Positions 30,953 to 56,321 of a DNA stretch of 64,000 bases are shown in pieces. The notes below the pieces were generated by a model. It was given only the letters and a program-made list of their open reading frames with translations, did not search any database and was not told the DNA's origin. The position numbers and the translations under genes were made by a program. The DNA lies in contig NZ_CP011773.1 in NCBI RefSeq assembly GCF_001021385.1, forward strand, positions 1,302,001 through 1,366,000, read 5' to 3'. The stretch is from Mycobacterium sp. EPa45 (GTDB taxonomy: Bacteria; Actinomycetota; Actinomycetes; Mycobacteriales; Mycobacteriaceae). The first letter of the stretch is position 1, and each line of letters starts with the position of its first letter.

Positions 30953-30987
30953 GTGTGTTACGCGACTTCCACGAGAGGATTCCGACG

Positions 30988-31836
30988 GTGCGGGAGACCA
31001 GCAACCCGGTATTTCGTTCGCTGCCCAAGCAGCAGGGCGGATACGCACAATTCGGTACCGGTGTCGCCGGTGCCCAGCAGGTGGCTTACCAGACCGATCC
31101 CTACGCGGGCGCCTACCAGCCGCAGACCGGTGTCTCGCGGCCCATGACGATCGACGACGTCGTCACCAAGACCGGCATCACCCTCGGTGTGCTGTCCGTC
31201 GTCGCGGTCATTTCCTACTTCCTGGTGTCGGCCAACCTGGCGCTGGCCATGCCGCTCACCCTGATCGGTGGGCTCGGCGGACTGGTGCTGGTGCTCATCG
31301 CCACCTTCGGCCGTAAGCAGGACAACCCGGCCATCGTGCTGAGCTACGCGGCGCTCGAAGGGCTGTTCGTCGGCGCGGTGTCGTTCATCTTCGCCAACGT
31401 CGTGGTGTCCGGCGCCAACGCCGGGGTGTTGATCAGCCAGGCGGTGCTCGGCACCATCGGCGTGTTCTTCGGCATGCTCGTCGTCTACAAGACCGGCGCC
31501 ATCCGGGTGACGCCCAAGTTCACCCGCATGATCGTCGCCGCCATGGTCGGCGTGCTGGTGCTGATGCTCGGCAACTTCGTGCTGGCGATGTTCGGTGTCG
31601 GTGGCGGCGAGGGCCTCGGCCTGCGCAGCGGTGGTCCGATCGCGATCGCCTTCTCACTGTTCGTGATTGCGCTCGCGGCGTTCAGCTTCCTGATCGACTT
31701 CGACGCCGCGGACCAGATGATCCGCGCCGGCGCGCCGGAGAAGGCAGCCTGGGGCGTGGCGCTCGGCCTGACCGTGACGCTGGTATGGCTGTACATCGAA
31801 ATCCTGCGACTGCTCAGCTACTTCCAGCAGCGCTAG
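30988..31836 (+). CDS. Bax inhibitor-1/YccA family membrane protein (Rv1072-like)
   Basis: 282 residues: a Gln/Tyr-rich cytoplasmic N-terminus (about 1-65) followed by seven transmembrane helices. The family features GLFVGAVSFIF, MLVVYKTGAIRVTPKF and the last LIDFDAADQMI with paired Asp residues that form the pH-sensing, Ca2+-leak site in bacterial BI-1 homologues. GTG 30988 has GAGAGG upstream. A strong bidirectional terminator follows. Probable role: ion homeostasis under stress; a SigE/SigH-like promoter may drive it. Confidence 0.9.
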   Translation: MRETSNPVFRSLPKQQGGYAQFGTGVAGAQQVAYQTDPYAGAYQPQTGVSRPMTIDDVVTKTGITLGVLSVVAVISYFLVSANLALAMPLTLIGGLGGLVLVLIATFGRKQDNPAIVLSYAALEGLFVGAVSFIFANVVVSGANAGVLISQAVLGTIGVFFGMLVVYKTGAIRVTPKFTRMIVAAMVGVLVLMLGNFVLAMFGVGGGEGLGLRSGGPIAIAFSLFVIALAAFSFLIDFDAADQMIRAGAPEKAAWGVALGLTVTLVWLYIEILRLLSYFQQR

Positions 31837-31850
31837 CAGCTCTCTGCGTG

Positions 31851-31880
31851 CAAAGCCCCGGCCTGATGGCCGGGGCTTTG
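31851..31880. terminator. strong bidirectional terminator
   Basis: A perfect 13-bp stem, CAAAGCCCCGGCC (31851-31863) and GGCCGGGGCTTTG (31868-31880), with loop TGAT. A- and T-tracts at the stem ends make it work on either strand. It closes the BI-1-family gene. Confidence 0.9.
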
Positions 31881-31899
31881 TCGTATGCGGGGAGTCCTC

Positions 31900-31916
31900 C
31901 ATCGAGTCAGACCTCA
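31900..31916 (+). repeat. REP-like repeat copy 1
   Basis: CATCGAGTCAGACCTCA. Its exact reverse complement occurs at 32886-32902 on the far side of the DUF559 gene, and a copy with one mismatch at 32841-32857. Confidence 0.85.
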
Positions 31917-31937
31917 CGGCAGTGCGCGGGGCTTTCT

Positions 31938-31962
31938 CATCGCAGCCAGTTCTGGCTCGATG
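31938..31962. repeat. related hairpin between repeat copy 1 and the DUF559 gene
   Basis: CATCG-C-AGCCAG (31938-31949), loop TT, CTGGCT-CGATG (31952-31962). The right half, read on the other strand, is CATCGAGCCAG, one base different from the first 11 bases of the flanking repeat, so it looks like a diverged member of the same family. Confidence 0.6.
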
Positions 31963-32014
31963 GGCTGTGGATGGGTGAACACCGGAATGCGCCGCATGCG
32001 TGACGCTCTCATGA

Positions 32015-32866
32015 ATGCAACGGGTGTTCATCGGGAGTGCGGCGGTCGCTGCGGGTGAGCTGACCAGGTACCAACTTCGCGCTCACTGTCGCCGGATCTT
32101 TCCCGACGTGTACGCCTATGGCAGCGGCGAACTCTCGATTCGAGATCGCGCGGTCGCGGCGGTTCTCTGGTCTCGGGGTCGCGCGGTCGTGACGGGCTTG
32201 GCGGCATCCGCAGTGCACGGAGCGAAATGGATCGACGCGTCAACTCCGATCGAGCTCAACTATCCGAACAATAAGGCGCCGCGGGGGATCATCAGCCGCG
32301 CCGAGACCCTGCTCGACGACGAAGTGCACCCCATACCGGGTCTACCGGTCACCACCGTGCCACGCACCGCGTTCGACCTCGCGCGGCTCGGGACGATGAG
32401 GCAGGCGGTGACCCACGTCGATGCACTGGCGAATGCCACCCGGTTGTCCGTCGACGACGTACTGGGGCTGCTGCCGCGTCATCCCAACGTGCGAGGTGTC
32501 CGCCGAGTCCCCGCGGTCCTAGACCTCGCAGACGCCGGCTCGCAGTCCCCGCGAGAGACCTGGTTGCGGCTACTGCTGATAGCCGCCGGATTCCCTCGCC
32601 CCGAGACCCAGATACCGGTGCTCAGAGCCGACGCGCGCTCGTACTACTTCCTGGACATGGGCTGGCGCGATGTGATGGTCGCGGTCGAATACGACGGCGA
32701 GCAGCACCGCCTGGATCGCGGCATCTATCGCGACGATCGGACCCGATCGGAATACATCGCCGACGTCGGGTGGCGGCGGATCCGGGTGATCGCCGGCGAC
32801 CGAACGCCCGACATCATCGAACGGGCCAGGCGTGCATGGACATCCAGTCAGACCTCAGGGCGATGA
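32015..32866 (+). CDS. DUF559 endonuclease-like protein with AbiEi-type N-terminus
   Basis: 283 residues. The N-terminal half resembles the winged-helix/AbiEi antitoxin-type domain (ELTRYQLRAHCRRIFPDVYAYG, then VTGLAASAVHGA). The C-terminal half is DUF559, a PD-(D/E)xK nuclease fold related to very-short-patch repair enzymes: DMGWRDVMVAVEYDGEQH supplies the Asp and the ExD pair, followed by YRDDRTRSEYIADVGWRRIRV. ATG 32015 gives a normal length. The gene has no co-oriented partner and its last codons lie inside a large hairpin built of the flanking repeats. Such genes occur in many copies in mycobacterial genomes; function unproven. Confidence 0.82.
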   Translation: MQRVFIGSAAVAAGELTRYQLRAHCRRIFPDVYAYGSGELSIRDRAVAAVLWSRGRAVVTGLAASAVHGAKWIDASTPIELNYPNNKAPRGIISRAETLLDDEVHPIPGLPVTTVPRTAFDLARLGTMRQAVTHVDALANATRLSVDDVLGLLPRHPNVRGVRRVPAVLDLADAGSQSPRETWLRLLLIAAGFPRPETQIPVLRADARSYYFLDMGWRDVMVAVEYDGEQHRLDRGIYRDDRTRSEYIADVGWRRIRVIAGDRTPDIIERARRAWTSSQTSGR

Positions 32867-32902
32867 AGTCGAGCCACCGTCGCCCTGAGGTCTGACTCGA
32901 TG
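32841..32902. repeat. large hairpin of REP-like repeats at the 3' end of the DUF559 gene
   Basis: Perfect 18-bp arms: AGTCAGACCTCAGGGCGA (32846-32863) and its complement (32880-32897), loop of 16 nt; with one mismatch the arms extend to 22-23 bp. The left arm encodes the last residues and reaches the stop codon of the DUF559 gene. The whole structure sits between convergent genes and could also stop transcription. Confidence 0.9.
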
Positions 32903-32911
32903 CGAGGAGGC

Positions 32912-34129
32912 CTAGCTGAGCCGCTCGATGACCATGGCCATGCCCTGGCCGCCGCCGACGCACATCGTCTCGATGCCGAACGTCTTGTCGTAGGTCTGCA
33001 GGTTGTTCAGCAGTGTGGCCGTGATGCGCGCGCCCGTCATGCCGAACGGGTGCCCGAGCGCGATCGCGCCGCCGGAGACATTGAGCTTGTCCTCGTCCAT
33101 GCCCAACGCCCGCGCCGAGCCGAGCACCTGGACCGCGAAGGCCTCGTTGATCTCGTAGAGGTCGATGTCGTTGATCGACATCTTCGCCTGCGCGAGCGCC
33201 TTCTTCACGGCCTCGATCGGGCCCAGGCCCATGATCTCCGGCGACAAGCCGGAAACGCCGGTCGCCACGACACGCGCCAACGGGGTCAACCCCAGCTCCT
33301 TGGCCTTGGTGTCCGACAGGATCACCAGCGCGGCGGCGCCGTCGTTGAGCGGGCAGGCATTGCCCGCGGTGATCGTGCCGTTGGGCCGGAAGACCGGCTT
33401 GAGCTGGCTGATCTTCTCGTAGCTGGTGCCGGCGCGCGGGCCGTCGTCCTTGGCGACGACGGTGCCGTCGGGCAGCGTGACGGGCACGATTTCGCGCTCG
33501 AAGAAGCCGTTGTTGATGGCCTCCTCGGCCCGGTTCTGGGAGCGGACGCCCCAGTGGTCCTGGTCTTCCCGGCTGATTCCGGTGTGCAGTGCGACGTTCT
33601 CTGCGGTCTGGCCCATCGCGATGTAGACGTCAGGCAGCAGGCCGTCCTCGCGCGGGTCGTGCCACTCGTCGGCACCGGCGGCGGCTTGCTCCGACCGGGA
33701 CATGGCGTCGGCGAAAAGGGAGTTCTTGGTGTCCGGCCAGCCGTCGGCGTTGCCCTTGCCGAAGCGCGACACGGTCTCGACGCCGGCCGAGATGAACGCG
33801 TGGCCCTCGCCGGCCTTGATCGCGTGGAACGCCATTCGCGTGCTCTGCAGCGACGACGAGCAGTACCGATTCACCGTGGTGCCGGGCAGGAAGTCGTAGC
33901 CCAGCTCGACGGCGACAGCGCGGCCGATGTTGAACCCCGACTCACCGCCGGGCTGGCCACAACCCATGATCAGGTCGTCGATCTCACGCGGATCGAGCGC
34001 GGGCACCTTGTCGAGTGCAGCACGCACCATCTGGGCGGCCAGATCGTCGGGACGAATGTCGACCAGCGACCCCTTCATCGCGCGACCGATCGGCGAGCGG
34101 GCAGTGGACACGATGACGGCTTCGGGCAT
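32912..34129 (-). CDS. fadA3: acetyl-CoA acyltransferase FadA3
   Basis: A 405-residue thiolase. Catalytic Cys in VNRYCSSSLQS, His in GHPFGMTGAR and the second Cys in METMCVGGGQG-type C-terminus (METMCVGGG reads IETMCVGGG here) are present. It cleaves 3-ketoacyl-CoA to acetyl-CoA and a shortened acyl-CoA. ATG 34129 follows AAGGAG. The M. tuberculosis gene in the same position is fadA3. It ends 15 bp from the repeat hairpin of the DUF559 gene. Confidence 0.95.
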   Translation of the reverse strand: MPEAVIVSTARSPIGRAMKGSLVDIRPDDLAAQMVRAALDKVPALDPREIDDLIMGCGQPGGESGFNIGRAVAVELGYDFLPGTTVNRYCSSSLQSTRMAFHAIKAGEGHAFISAGVETVSRFGKGNADGWPDTKNSLFADAMSRSEQAAAGADEWHDPREDGLLPDVYIAMGQTAENVALHTGISREDQDHWGVRSQNRAEEAINNGFFEREIVPVTLPDGTVVAKDDGPRAGTSYEKISQLKPVFRPNGTITAGNACPLNDGAAALVILSDTKAKELGLTPLARVVATGVSGLSPEIMGLGPIEAVKKALAQAKMSINDIDLYEINEAFAVQVLGSARALGMDEDKLNVSGGAIALGHPFGMTGARITATLLNNLQTYDKTFGIETMCVGGGQGMAMVIERLS

Positions 34130-34177
34130 GACGACTCCTTGGTGTGCAGCTTGGGTGCAGCGAGACTGCACACGAAC

Positions 34178-38601: not shown

Positions 38602-38614
38602 ACAAGGACTTTCG

Positions 38615-39205
38615 ATGACGCAGCCTCCTCCTCCCCCCGGCAACTACCCGCCCCCTCCGCCGGGCAACTATCCGCCGCCGCCTCCGCCGGGCAGCTACCC
38701 GCCGCCGCCTCCGCCGGGCGCCGGTGTGCTGTCCAAGGAGGCCTACACACCGTGGATCAAGCGGGTCGGCGCCTGGATCATCGACGTGATCCCGATCGCG
38801 ATCCTGTCCGGAGTAGGACAGGGCCTGATGGTGGCCACCGGTGAGAACAACTGCACCTCGAGCAGCGTCGACAACAGCTATGGCGTGTACTGCACGTCGC
38901 AGCCGTCGACGCTGGGGCTGATCCTGTCGTTCGTGTTCGGCCTCGCCAGCCTGGCGTTCGCGCTGTGGAACTACGGCTACCGCCAGGGCACCACCGGGTC
39001 GAGCATCGGCAAGTCGGTCCTGAAGTTCAAGGTGATCAGCGAAAAGACCGGTCAGCCGATCGGTTTCGGGTTGTCGATCGTGCGCCAGATCGCGCACTTC
39101 GTGGACGCGATCATCTGCTACATCGGCTACCTGTTCCCGTTGTGGGATGCCAAGCGGCAGACGCTCGCCGATAAAATCATGACGACGGTGTGCGTGCCGC
39201 TCTGA
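38615..39205 (+). CDS. second RDD protein, tandem paralogue of Pra
   Basis: 196 residues, starting 13 bp after pra. It begins with a run of Pro/Gly/Tyr blocks (GNYPPPPPG repeated), then an RDD domain whose segment YRQGTTGSSIGKSVLKFKVISEKTGQPIGFGLSIVRQI is nearly the same as in Pra, with the first helix and extracellular loop (ENNCTSSS...YCTSQPS) more diverged. A recent tandem duplication is likely. AAGGAC precedes ATG 38615. Confidence 0.92.
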   Translation: MTQPPPPPGNYPPPPPGNYPPPPPPGSYPPPPPPGAGVLSKEAYTPWIKRVGAWIIDVIPIAILSGVGQGLMVATGENNCTSSSVDNSYGVYCTSQPSTLGLILSFVFGLASLAFALWNYGYRQGTTGSSIGKSVLKFKVISEKTGQPIGFGLSIVRQIAHFVDAIICYIGYLFPLWDAKRQTLADKIMTTVCVPL

Positions 39206-48966: not shown

Positions 48967-49380
48967 ATGACCGCCATCACTCCCAGGACCCACCCGTTCG
49001 CTGATTCAGGAGACTCACTACTGCGTTTCGCGATGCGTGTCGACGCCACCGGAACCGGTGTGCTCGGCTTGGCCATCGCAGCGATGGCCGACCCGCTGGG
49101 CCGGCTGACCGGACTCACCGCCGCGCAGGGTTACATCGCCGGAGCGGCCTTCGTGCTCTGCGGACTCGTCGTCTATGCGCTGGCCGCCGCGCCCGACCTG
49201 CGTCGGGTCGGCACGGGGCTGGTCGTGTTCAACAGCGTCGGGACCGTCGGCTTCGTCGTCCTTGCTGAGGCCGGCGTGTTGCCGCTGACCACTTTCGGAT
49301 CCCTCACCGCACTGGCCGGCGCCCTCTACACCGCCACCTTCGCCGTCCTGCAGTACCTCGGAGTGCGCCGTCTGGCGTGA
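48967..49380 (+). CDS. small four-helix membrane protein, copy A
   Basis: 137 residues with about four transmembrane helices. It shares with the next gene the phrase SLLRFAMRVDA near the start and AVLQYLGVRRLA at the end, so they are tandem paralogues. No known family. Upstream lie three phased 9-bp repeats which may be operators. ATG 48967 is not preceded by a clear ribosome site. Confidence 0.78.
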   Translation: MTAITPRTHPFADSGDSLLRFAMRVDATGTGVLGLAIAAMADPLGRLTGLTAAQGYIAGAAFVLCGLVVYALAAAPDLRRVGTGLVVFNSVGTVGFVVLAEAGVLPLTTFGSLTALAGALYTATFAVLQYLGVRRLA

Positions 49381-49427
49381 TTCGCCACGGCACCGGCACT
49401 TCACAACCCCCCACGAAAGGAACAGTT

Positions 49428-49820
49428 ATGACCACCACCCTGTCGACCACCACGTCGGACTCGCTGCTGCGGATGGCCATGCGGGTCGACGCCGTCCTGT
49501 CCGGTCTGTGCGGCATCGTTTTGATGGCCGCCGCCGGACCGATCTCCGGTTTCACCGGCTACCCTAAAGCGGCCGAGTTCGCCACCGGCGCAGTGTTCGT
49601 CGTCTACGCCGTCGTGGTGTTCCTGGCGGCAGGCCTGCAGCGGGTGCGCACGGCTGGCATCGCCACCGCGATCGCCAACCTGGTCTTCACCGTCGCGGCC
49701 GTGGTGGCCGTGATCGAGTTCGATATGACGACTGCGGGCGTGGTTGTCACTCTGGCCAGTGGGGTGTACACGCTGGTGTTCGCCGACCTGCAGTACCTGG
49801 GTGTGCGCCGCATCAAATAG
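49428..49820 (+). CDS. small four-helix membrane protein, copy B
   Basis: 130 residues, paralogue of the preceding gene (SLLRMAMRVDA at residues about 12-22, ADLQYLGVRRIK at the end), four membrane helices. ATG 49428 follows AAAGGA at a good distance. The pair is probably an operon. Function unknown. Confidence 0.82.
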   Translation: MTTTLSTTTSDSLLRMAMRVDAVLSGLCGIVLMAAAGPISGFTGYPKAAEFATGAVFVVYAVVVFLAAGLQRVRTAGIATAIANLVFTVAAVVAVIEFDMTTAGVVVTLASGVYTLVFADLQYLGVRRIK

Positions 49821-55001: not shown

Positions 55002-56321
55002 GTGACCGATTCGCAGTCGCCCATTCGGACGTATGTGCTCGACACCTCAGTCTTGCTGTCCGATCCGTGGGCGTGCACCCGGTTCGCCGAACACGAAGTG
55101 GTGGTACCGCTCGTGGTCATCAGTGAACTGGAAGCCAAGCGCCACCACCACGAGCTGGGCTGGTTCGCCCGGCAGGCGCTGCGGCTGTTCGACGACCTCC
55201 GCCTGGAGCATGGTCGCCTGGATCAGCCGATTCCCATTGGGACAGAAGGCGGAACGCTCAATGTCGAACTCAACCACAGCGATCCGATGGTGCTGCCGTC
55301 CGGCTTCCGCACCGAGAGCAACGACACCCGGATCCTGACGGTCGCGGCCAACCTCGCGGCCGAAGGCAAGCGAGTCACGTTGGTCAGCAAGGACATTCCG
55401 CTGCGGGTGAAGGCCGGCGCGGTAGGCCTGCTGGCCGACGAGTACCACGCCCAGGACGTGATCACCTCCGGCTGGACCGGCATGACCGAGCTCGACGTCG
55501 CGAGCGAGGATGTCGACACAATCTTCGCCGAGGGCGAGATCGATCACGAGGAAGCGCGTAATCTGCCGTGCCACACCGGGGTTCGGCTACTCGGCGCCAA
55601 CTCCAGCGCGCTCGGTCGGGTGAACGCGGACAAGAAGGTACAGCTGGTGCGCGGCGATCGCGAAGTGTTCGGCCTCCGGGGAAGGTCCGCCGAACAACGC
55701 GTCGCGCTTGATCTGCTGCTCGACGAGTCGGTGGGCATCGTGAGCCTCGGCGGCAAGGCCGGCACCGGCAAGTCGGCGCTGGCGCTGTGCGCGGGCCTCG
55801 AGGCGGTGCTCGAGCGGCGCACCCAGCGCAAGGTTGTCGTGTTCCGGCCGCTGTACGCCGTCGGCGGGCAGGACCTCGGCTACCTGCCGGGCAGCGAGAG
55901 CGACAAGATGGGCCCGTGGGCGCAGGCTGTCTTTGACACGCTCGAGGGCCTGGCGTCGCCGGCCGTGCTGGAAGAGGTGCTCTCCCGCGGGATGCTCGAA
56001 GTGCTGCCGCTGACCCACATCCGCGGTCGTTCGCTGCACGACTCGTTCGTGATCGTCGACGAGGCGCAGTCGCTGGAGCGCAACGTGCTGCTGACGGTGC
56101 TCTCGCGGCTGGGCAGCGGGTCGCGGGTGGTGCTGACCCACGACGTCGCGCAGCGCGATAACCTGCGCGTCGGGCGTCACGACGGTGTGGCGGCGGTCAT
56201 CGAGAAACTCAAGGGTCACCCGCTGTTCGCGCACATCACCCTCATGCGTAGCGAACGTTCGCCGATCGCCGCGCTGGTCACCGAGATGCTCGAGGAGATC
56301 AGCCCCGGCGCCTTGCCATGA
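55002..56321 (+). CDS. phoH2: PhoH2: PIN domain fused to PhoH ATPase
   Basis: 439 residues. N-terminal PIN ribonuclease domain (about 1-150) with acidic residues in [18 protein letters not shown] and SNDTRIL; C-terminal PhoH P-loop domain (about 215-439) with [13 protein letters not shown] and Walker [11 protein letters not shown]. The mycobacterial protein is an RNA helicase/RNase toxin, PhoAT the antitoxin. GTG 55002 follows GAGGAG (54990-54995). Confidence 0.95.

Follow-up and report, generated by a model that had tools for sequence, protein, structure and literature searches.

Hairpins that frame a DUF559 nuclease gene and stand alone at gene ends suggest an undescribed actinobacterial family of short mobile hairpins with a helper enzyme

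Organization of the locus

The window, i.e., the whole 64-kb stretch of DNA that was analyzed, contains a gene for a DUF559/MTES_1575 protein that lies between two convergent genes and is flanked on either side by a copy of a hairpin, here called type A. The gene to the left encodes what we take to be a BI-1-like membrane protein, and the gene to the right, on the opposite strand, presumably encodes an acetyl-CoA acetyltransferase (thiolase). The bit scores given below are those of R1, a covariance model built from six copies of the type A hairpin; both window hairpins are among these six, and their scores are not independent of the model.

30955 to 31836, plus strand: open reading frame of the upstream, presumably BI-1-like membrane gene; left-hand gene at the convergent junction
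31851 to 31880, plus strand: terminator-like hairpin of the upstream gene; outside the element, marks the junction
31897 to 31966, plus strand: left bracket hairpin, type A, diverged copy, upstream of the DUF559 start codon (R1, 67.1 bits)
32015 to 32866, plus strand: open reading frame of the DUF559/MTES_1575 gene, 283 amino acids
32838 to 32906, plus strand: right bracket hairpin, type A, intact copy, overlapping the last codons and the stop of the gene (R1, 77.8 bits)
32912 to 34171, minus strand: open reading frame of the presumed thiolase gene; right-hand gene at the convergent junction

The arms of the right hairpin (32841-32863 and 32880-32902) are 96% complementary (22/23) and enclose a loop of 16 nt, and this is the sole hairpin within the 64-kb window that reaches the set stem score. 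The arms of the left hairpin (31899-31914 and 31948-31963) are 88% complementary. The initial annotation, which was made from the sequence alone, had described CATCGAGTCAGACCTCA at 31900-31916 with its exact complement at 32886-32902 and a one-mismatch copy at 32841-32857 that pairs with the right-hand copy; all of these are present, and the pairing comprises 18 consecutive perfect positions. It had also noted a diverged hairpin on the left, which exists but extends over 31897-31966 rather than 31938-31962, and had placed the last eight codons and the stop of the gene within a hairpin arm. The left arm of the right hairpin does contain the eight codons (32840-32863), whereas the TGA stop (32864-32866) forms the first three bases of the loop.

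The hairpins are located at gene ends, and inspection of the sequence revealed no T run after either of the two window copies. Rfam models gave sub-threshold matches over positions 31000-34000 and none at the gathering score. Beyond the two copies, the next R1 match in the window is at 55481; it scores 17.8 bits, lies inside a coding frame, and resembles a chance match. An R1 match is found upstream of the gene in all 11 loci of relatives with 74-90% identity (L102-L106 and L129-L134, some of which are one genome met twice), 10 of them at the same junction and one (L134) at a different site. When the junction is compared among relatives, a comparable terminator-like hairpin follows the BI-1-like gene in most of those that have no element. 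We consider it probable that 31897-32906 constitutes a single element made up of a hairpin, a DUF559 nuclease gene, and a hairpin.

Bracketing repeats in the DUF559 family

To score bracketing, the 250 nt preceding the start codon were aligned locally with a stretch around the stop codon, and the best alignment counted as a bracket when its score exceeded a threshold of 30. The 106 loci taken (10 from this genome, 27 named loci, and 69 from a genus search) yielded 98 with sufficient match length and flanks, and 60 remained after proteins at least 75% alike were dropped; close kin are over-represented among them, because the loci were chosen by similarity to the window protein. Upstream and downstream repeats exceed the threshold at 47 of these 60 nonredundant DUF559 loci, compared with 2 of 211 control genes drawn both from the window and from the named loci (Mann-Whitney p 1e-23), and 13 of the 60 are unbracketed at this threshold. 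Both control matches are coding duplications (window 38614-39205 and 49376-49820), and in this control comparison no hairpin brackets were found at the other genes of the same loci. The median alignment score is 46 for flank pairs within a locus versus 21 for pairs across DUF559 loci. Bracketing is found both at the junction of the window (14 of 16 loci) and elsewhere (33 of 44). At the 45 loci with scores above 33, the direct orientation gives the better alignment for 26 pairs and the inverted orientation for 19, and the upstream copy in family loci is situated approximately 120 to 35 nt ahead of the start codon.

The claim of the initial annotation that no other gene in the window is bracketed holds for the window; elsewhere in this genome, other DUF559 genes are framed as well, by stems unlike the window type, and eight of the nine DUF559 genes measured in this genome are bracketed. 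Beyond the genus, brackets are present at 11 of the 14 loci that were measurable (16 tried, with slightly wider windows and no separate control), including L318, which is in the same family, and L323, which scores just 35. The bracket repeats of L318, from another genus of that family, are tandem CCGTTGACCGTGCGTC-like units.

Type A hairpins across the genome

R1 detects 16 distinct sites in the 6.18-Mb genome, and 15 have an E-value below 1e-3. Scoring covered 150 of the 4388 candidates from a first look, so that copies with greater divergence may have escaped detection. Two of the sites flank the window gene. In a MITE, the terminal repeats correspond to those of a classical IS of the genome; here, the repeats correspond to the DUF559 element. 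The other 13 strong sites are solos, i.e., hairpins that stand alone, and are located between convergent genes in 10 cases and between same-direction genes in 3, against a background of 54 convergent junctions among 267 counted over the window and named loci (orientation from a simple gene caller, with the L077 site read separately). Solos between convergent genes are mostly a few nucleotides from the stop codons. Each solo unit is a single hairpin of 55-75 nt; those of another type, type B, mostly measure 55 nt in the searched core. No full element was seen in near-identical multiple copies in this genome. The similarity of its other DUF559 genes to the window gene does not exceed 46%, so that recent whole-element copying is not seen here.

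Two plain-pattern searches were discarded. The 13-nt core with 2 mismatches is uninformative as a copy count, with 63 matches versus 60 in the reversed control, and a six-base core palindrome pattern was found at 14 places versus 12 in the control.

Hairpin types and enzyme subfamilies

Several stem types are distinguished, namely, GAGTCAGAACTCAG (type A, as in the window), TTGACTCTGCG (type B), GTAACGCCACGGCG, and more. Stem similarity tracks protein similarity over 45 loci (Mantel r 0.45, p 5e-4), with a correlation of 0.44 for the N-domain and 0.34 for the C-domain. Each of the seven genomes that carry an ortholog with at least 74% identity, the source genome included, has 14-28 R1 matches on the two strands combined. 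Across 118 genomes of the genus, at least one match with E <= 1e-5 is present in 57 and none in 61. The 10 genomes that have at least five R1 matches and no ortholog of at least 74% identity were followed up; they contain 76 distinct type A sites, 15 of which are no more than 60 nt away from a DUF559 gene, compared with about 0.03 expected (by hand arithmetic). In nine of these 10 genomes, a DUF559 gene (41-64% identical, one a fragment) is flanked by a type A hairpin, on both sides in G105, G084, G103, G073, and G098 and on one side in G041, G008, G043, and G017; the four type A sites of G047 are not beside a DUF559 gene. Because the genomes are related, these genome counts are not independent. 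Repeats at this locus only, or repeats without association with DUF559 genes, were two of the three outcomes that the initial annotation had set against its own reading, and neither was observed.

Type B was found by a plain-pattern search in 42 of the 118 genomes, at up to 15 places in each, and the reversed control gave zero in each. Covariation was assessed with 19 copies, all 63 nt long, that were selected by hand from 31 loci on the basis of length and a readable loop. Covariation is seen in the inner stem, with 31 cells changed on both sides versus 16.5 in shuffles (reached by 0 of 500) and 12 pairs with a both-side change versus 7.5 (reached by 2 of 500); the outer stem is fixed by the search pattern and carries no evidence on covariation. 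The 30 classified type B copies comprise 14 between convergent, 13 between tandem, and 3 between divergent genes, and some flank DUF559 genes. At L241 (~1480-1575), the outer flanks CCTTGGATT and AATCCAAGG of a type B solo extend the palindrome, as if it had been inserted in the tip of an older hairpin.

The BI-1/thiolase junction across the genus

The 76 loci with both flanks, some of them met twice, reduce to 59 distinct spacers, of which 36 contain a DUF559 gene (33 with paired repeats) and 23 do not. One of these 23 spacers is 1363 nt long; the other 22 measure 60-202 nt and mostly hold an upstream terminator-like hairpin, alone or with a solo of one of several types. The folds of L356/L359 and L372 can be read as apparent hairpin-within-hairpin insertions.

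The 33 junction genes require nine label changes on a quickly built tree of 97 proteins, and their placement in one clade is rejected (p-AU ~1e-40, with L344, labeled as lying elsewhere but located at a contig end, and L086, on a long branch, left out of the single-clade test). The idea that the DUF559 gene of this junction is one ancient ortholog was rejected by this test. Since the junction genes do not form one clade, the junction has been refilled or exchanged repeatedly. In G009, the closest gene (74%) is located at another convergent junction and is bracketed by type A hairpins, and the junction of the window is occupied by another DUF559 gene (48%), whose hairpins are of a different stem type.

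Empty, solo, and full sites in relatives

The joined flanks of 12 sites were aligned as queries with six relatives, several of which align straight across. The initial annotation had proposed a search for empty sites in relatives, and these were found for six solo sites. The hairpin is absent at base level at L074 in G093; L072 in G004; L070 and L073 in G053 and G024; L067 in G024, G004, G053, and G093; and L076 in G009. Other relatives are filled at L072, L073, L070, and L067. Some of the empty-site alignments are poor in the spacer, and the empty L076 copy has lost neighboring bases as well. No target-site duplication is fixed among the compared insertions, which are old and have drifting edges; AGCC is a possible one at the L074 site. 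A target preference for CTAG was set aside: overlapping convergent stop codons alone yield this tetranucleotide.

The L069 site occurs in both solo and full states. It holds a solo in the source genome and in G004, with an R1 match in each, and the arrangement of hairpin, DUF559 gene, and hairpin in G093, G024, and G053; G018 has a short spacer at this site with no R1 match. The DUF559 copy of G093 (L271, G093:C5:29800-31300) is interrupted by a stop codon at match residue 93, which indicates that full elements can decay in place. The corresponding genes of G024 and G053 have no internal stop; the TGA in G024 is the gene end, and G053 has none within the alignment. At another site, L066, approximately 570 nt separate the flanks in G024 (L276, G024:C67:5400-6450) and in G053, instead of one hairpin.

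Domain structure of the protein

The 283-residue protein consists of an AbiEi-like N-domain (residues ~1-173), which matches the PADLOC AbiEi model at 2.3e-8, and a Vsr-fold nuclease domain (residues ~176-280). Its match to PF18741 (Pfam) has an E-value of 1.3e-4, short of the curated cutoff, and the same family is matched by 43 of 48 aligned homologs at E 0.001. Scans of the window protein and the 48 homologs with Pfam returned MTES_1575, DUF559, AbiEi_1, and a sub-threshold DprA_WH and no Y1/HUH family. The AlphaFold2 model (mean pLDDT, 92.1) predicts an AbiEi-like N-domain joined to a Vsr/I-Bth0305I-like nuclease with candidate catalytic residues. Its fold matches by VIA-align include 6y8q, 3r3p, 3hrl, and 1cw0, and the best Foldseek E-value is just 3.8e-3. 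No RAYT or TnpA chain is among the 50 rows of the VIA-align table, which in itself proves nothing. In the 48 homologs, Glu181, Asp214, Gly228, and His231 are invariant and Glu225 and Asp227 nearly invariant; these include the candidate catalytic residues. The conserved acidic residues and the PF18741/PF04480-type domain place the protein among the DUF559/MTES_1575 Vsr-like nucleases. The dN/dS values of 0.10-0.19 against seven relatives indicate purifying selection, which fits a host function as well. No toxin-like gene, as expected next to the antitoxin gene in an AbiE type IV toxin-antitoxin system, adjoins the DUF559 gene, whose neighbors are the BI-1-like and thiolase genes.

Interpretation of the hairpins and their nuclease

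The hairpins could be bidirectional terminators that are kept alike by gene conversion, with the DUF559 genes as passengers that entered convergent junctions via recombination between terminators. The preference of the strong solos in this genome for convergent junctions (10/13 versus 54/267) and the stable, covarying stems agree with this explanation, which we nevertheless consider unlikely. The BI-1-like gene has a terminator-like hairpin of its own beside the left copy, other genes in the same loci have no hairpin brackets, and 13 tandem and 3 divergent placements accompany the 14 convergent ones of type B; moreover, passengers would not be expected to share a stem type within a protein subfamily. 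Proof that the repeats are terminators and nothing more was the third outcome that the initial annotation had set against its reading; such proof was not obtained, and termination alone does not account for the second matching copy ahead of the start codon, the stems specific to subfamilies, the empty sites, or the solo and full states. The hairpins are nonetheless likely to act as terminators as well.

Two other explanations assign the hairpins to the regulation or the protection of the cell. In the first, the hairpins would serve an AbiEi-like regulator as operators or RNA targets, with the inverted repeats being bound for autoregulation and the solos forming its regulon. The AbiEi-like N-domain and an upstream copy located ~120 to 35 nt ahead of the start codon would be compatible with this, and AbiEi binds inverted repeats of its own promoter. 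We regard this as very unlikely, since it does not account for a second copy at the stop codon, solos that lie between convergent genes rather than at promoters in 10 of 13 cases, the conservation of candidate catalytic residues, or the gain and loss of solos between relatives. A defense or toxin-antitoxin module, in which a hairpin RNA guards the nuclease or is cut by it and the solos are decayed remnants, would be in line with the PADLOC matches of the N-domain, the presence of 1 to 12 such genes in each of 117 out of 118 genomes of the genus, and purifying selection. On the other hand, no toxin-like partner is found beside the window gene, the family is nearly absent from phages (1 weak match in 50,697 records) and plasmids (6 in 72,556), and the stem sequence within one type, not the fold alone, is shared; we give this explanation very little credence.

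In our assessment, the hairpins and genes probably form a REPIN/RAYT-like system in which a Vsr-fold PD-(D/E)xK nuclease takes the place of the HUH Y1 transposase and each DUF559 subfamily has its cognate hairpin, actinobacteria-wide; the hairpins also occur on their own, often at the 3' ends of genes. The initial annotation had put forward a REP system that lacks RAYT and has a PD-(D/E)xK protein as partner; as far as sequence comparison can tell, this proposal is supported by the solos, their association with DUF559 genes, and the recurrence of the bracket. The simplest account is that the protein moves the hairpins. The AbiEi-like domain would recognize the hairpin, and the Vsr-like domain would nick at or near it, either as duplex or in an extruded form; repair or replication might then copy the hairpin into another site, rarely together with the gene. 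Convergent junctions would tolerate the hairpin, since it can provide stop codons and probably terminates transcription in both directions. Deletion between the two bracket copies could leave a solo behind, and the solos may be such deletion remnants, separately moved copies, or both; if they are remnants of full elements, independent movement of the hairpin would be unnecessary.

Relatives of the DUF559 gene are present in 117 of the 118 sampled genomes of the genus and in 171 of 246 genomes of a class sample. On balance, we favor the broader view of a transposon-like family throughout the class Actinomycetes, in which a nuclease of the Vsr/homing-endonuclease fold with an AbiEi-like DNA-binding domain recognizes its cognate palindrome, has a copy of it on each side of its own gene, and spreads solos to gene ends. 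This would represent an independent invention of the REP/RAYT lifestyle, with many codiversified pairs per genome. DUF559 relatives have so far had no assigned function past their domain number, and they would gain one if they are hairpin helpers. The palindromes at gene ends in these genomes would acquire an origin, and the REP/RAYT principle would prove to be independent of HUH chemistry. The family would also offer many natural nuclease-hairpin pairs for testing sequence-specific cutting and a route to asking how short repeats turn into terminators.

Comparison with known systems

The portions of the literature covered by our search hold no description of a hairpin-bracketed DUF559 system. 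A mycobacterial CGAAA(N)19TTTCG pair of unknown role is reported in PMC5217627. The protein differs from each of its structural relatives: unlike the AbiEi antitoxin (6y8q), it has a nuclease domain and no toxin-like neighbor; unlike the Vsr mismatch endonuclease (1cw0), it belongs to a family with several diverse genes per genome, hairpin brackets, and a fused N-domain; and unlike the Vsr-like homing endonuclease I-Bth0305I (3r3p), it is encoded by an intergenic gene with hairpins at both ends and no intron or intein host seen, and it carries an AbiEi-like N-domain.

In IS608 of the IS200/IS605 family, the enzyme recognizes flanking imperfect palindromes, as described in PMC3116915. The element in the window likewise has one gene between two imperfect palindromes, although its nuclease has a different fold and is not a TnpA HUH transposase, its right hairpin overlaps the last codons of the gene, and solos are abundant. 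The same paper describes REPIN/RAYT systems, including the insertion of one hairpin into or beside another, and proposes that hairpin and gene coevolve. In place of a Y1/HUH enzyme, the window gene encodes a nuclease of the Vsr fold that carries an AbiEi-like N-domain, one hairpin lies on each side of the gene, several different such genes are found per genome, and the solo unit appears to be a single hairpin of 55-75 nt; the mobile unit of a REPIN is an inverted doublet of two REPs. On the other hand, the two systems have in common, as described for REPIN/RAYT in PMC3116915, short palindromes dispersed over extragenic sites, a hairpin flavor of its own beside each distinct nuclease gene, and one gene copy per flavor.
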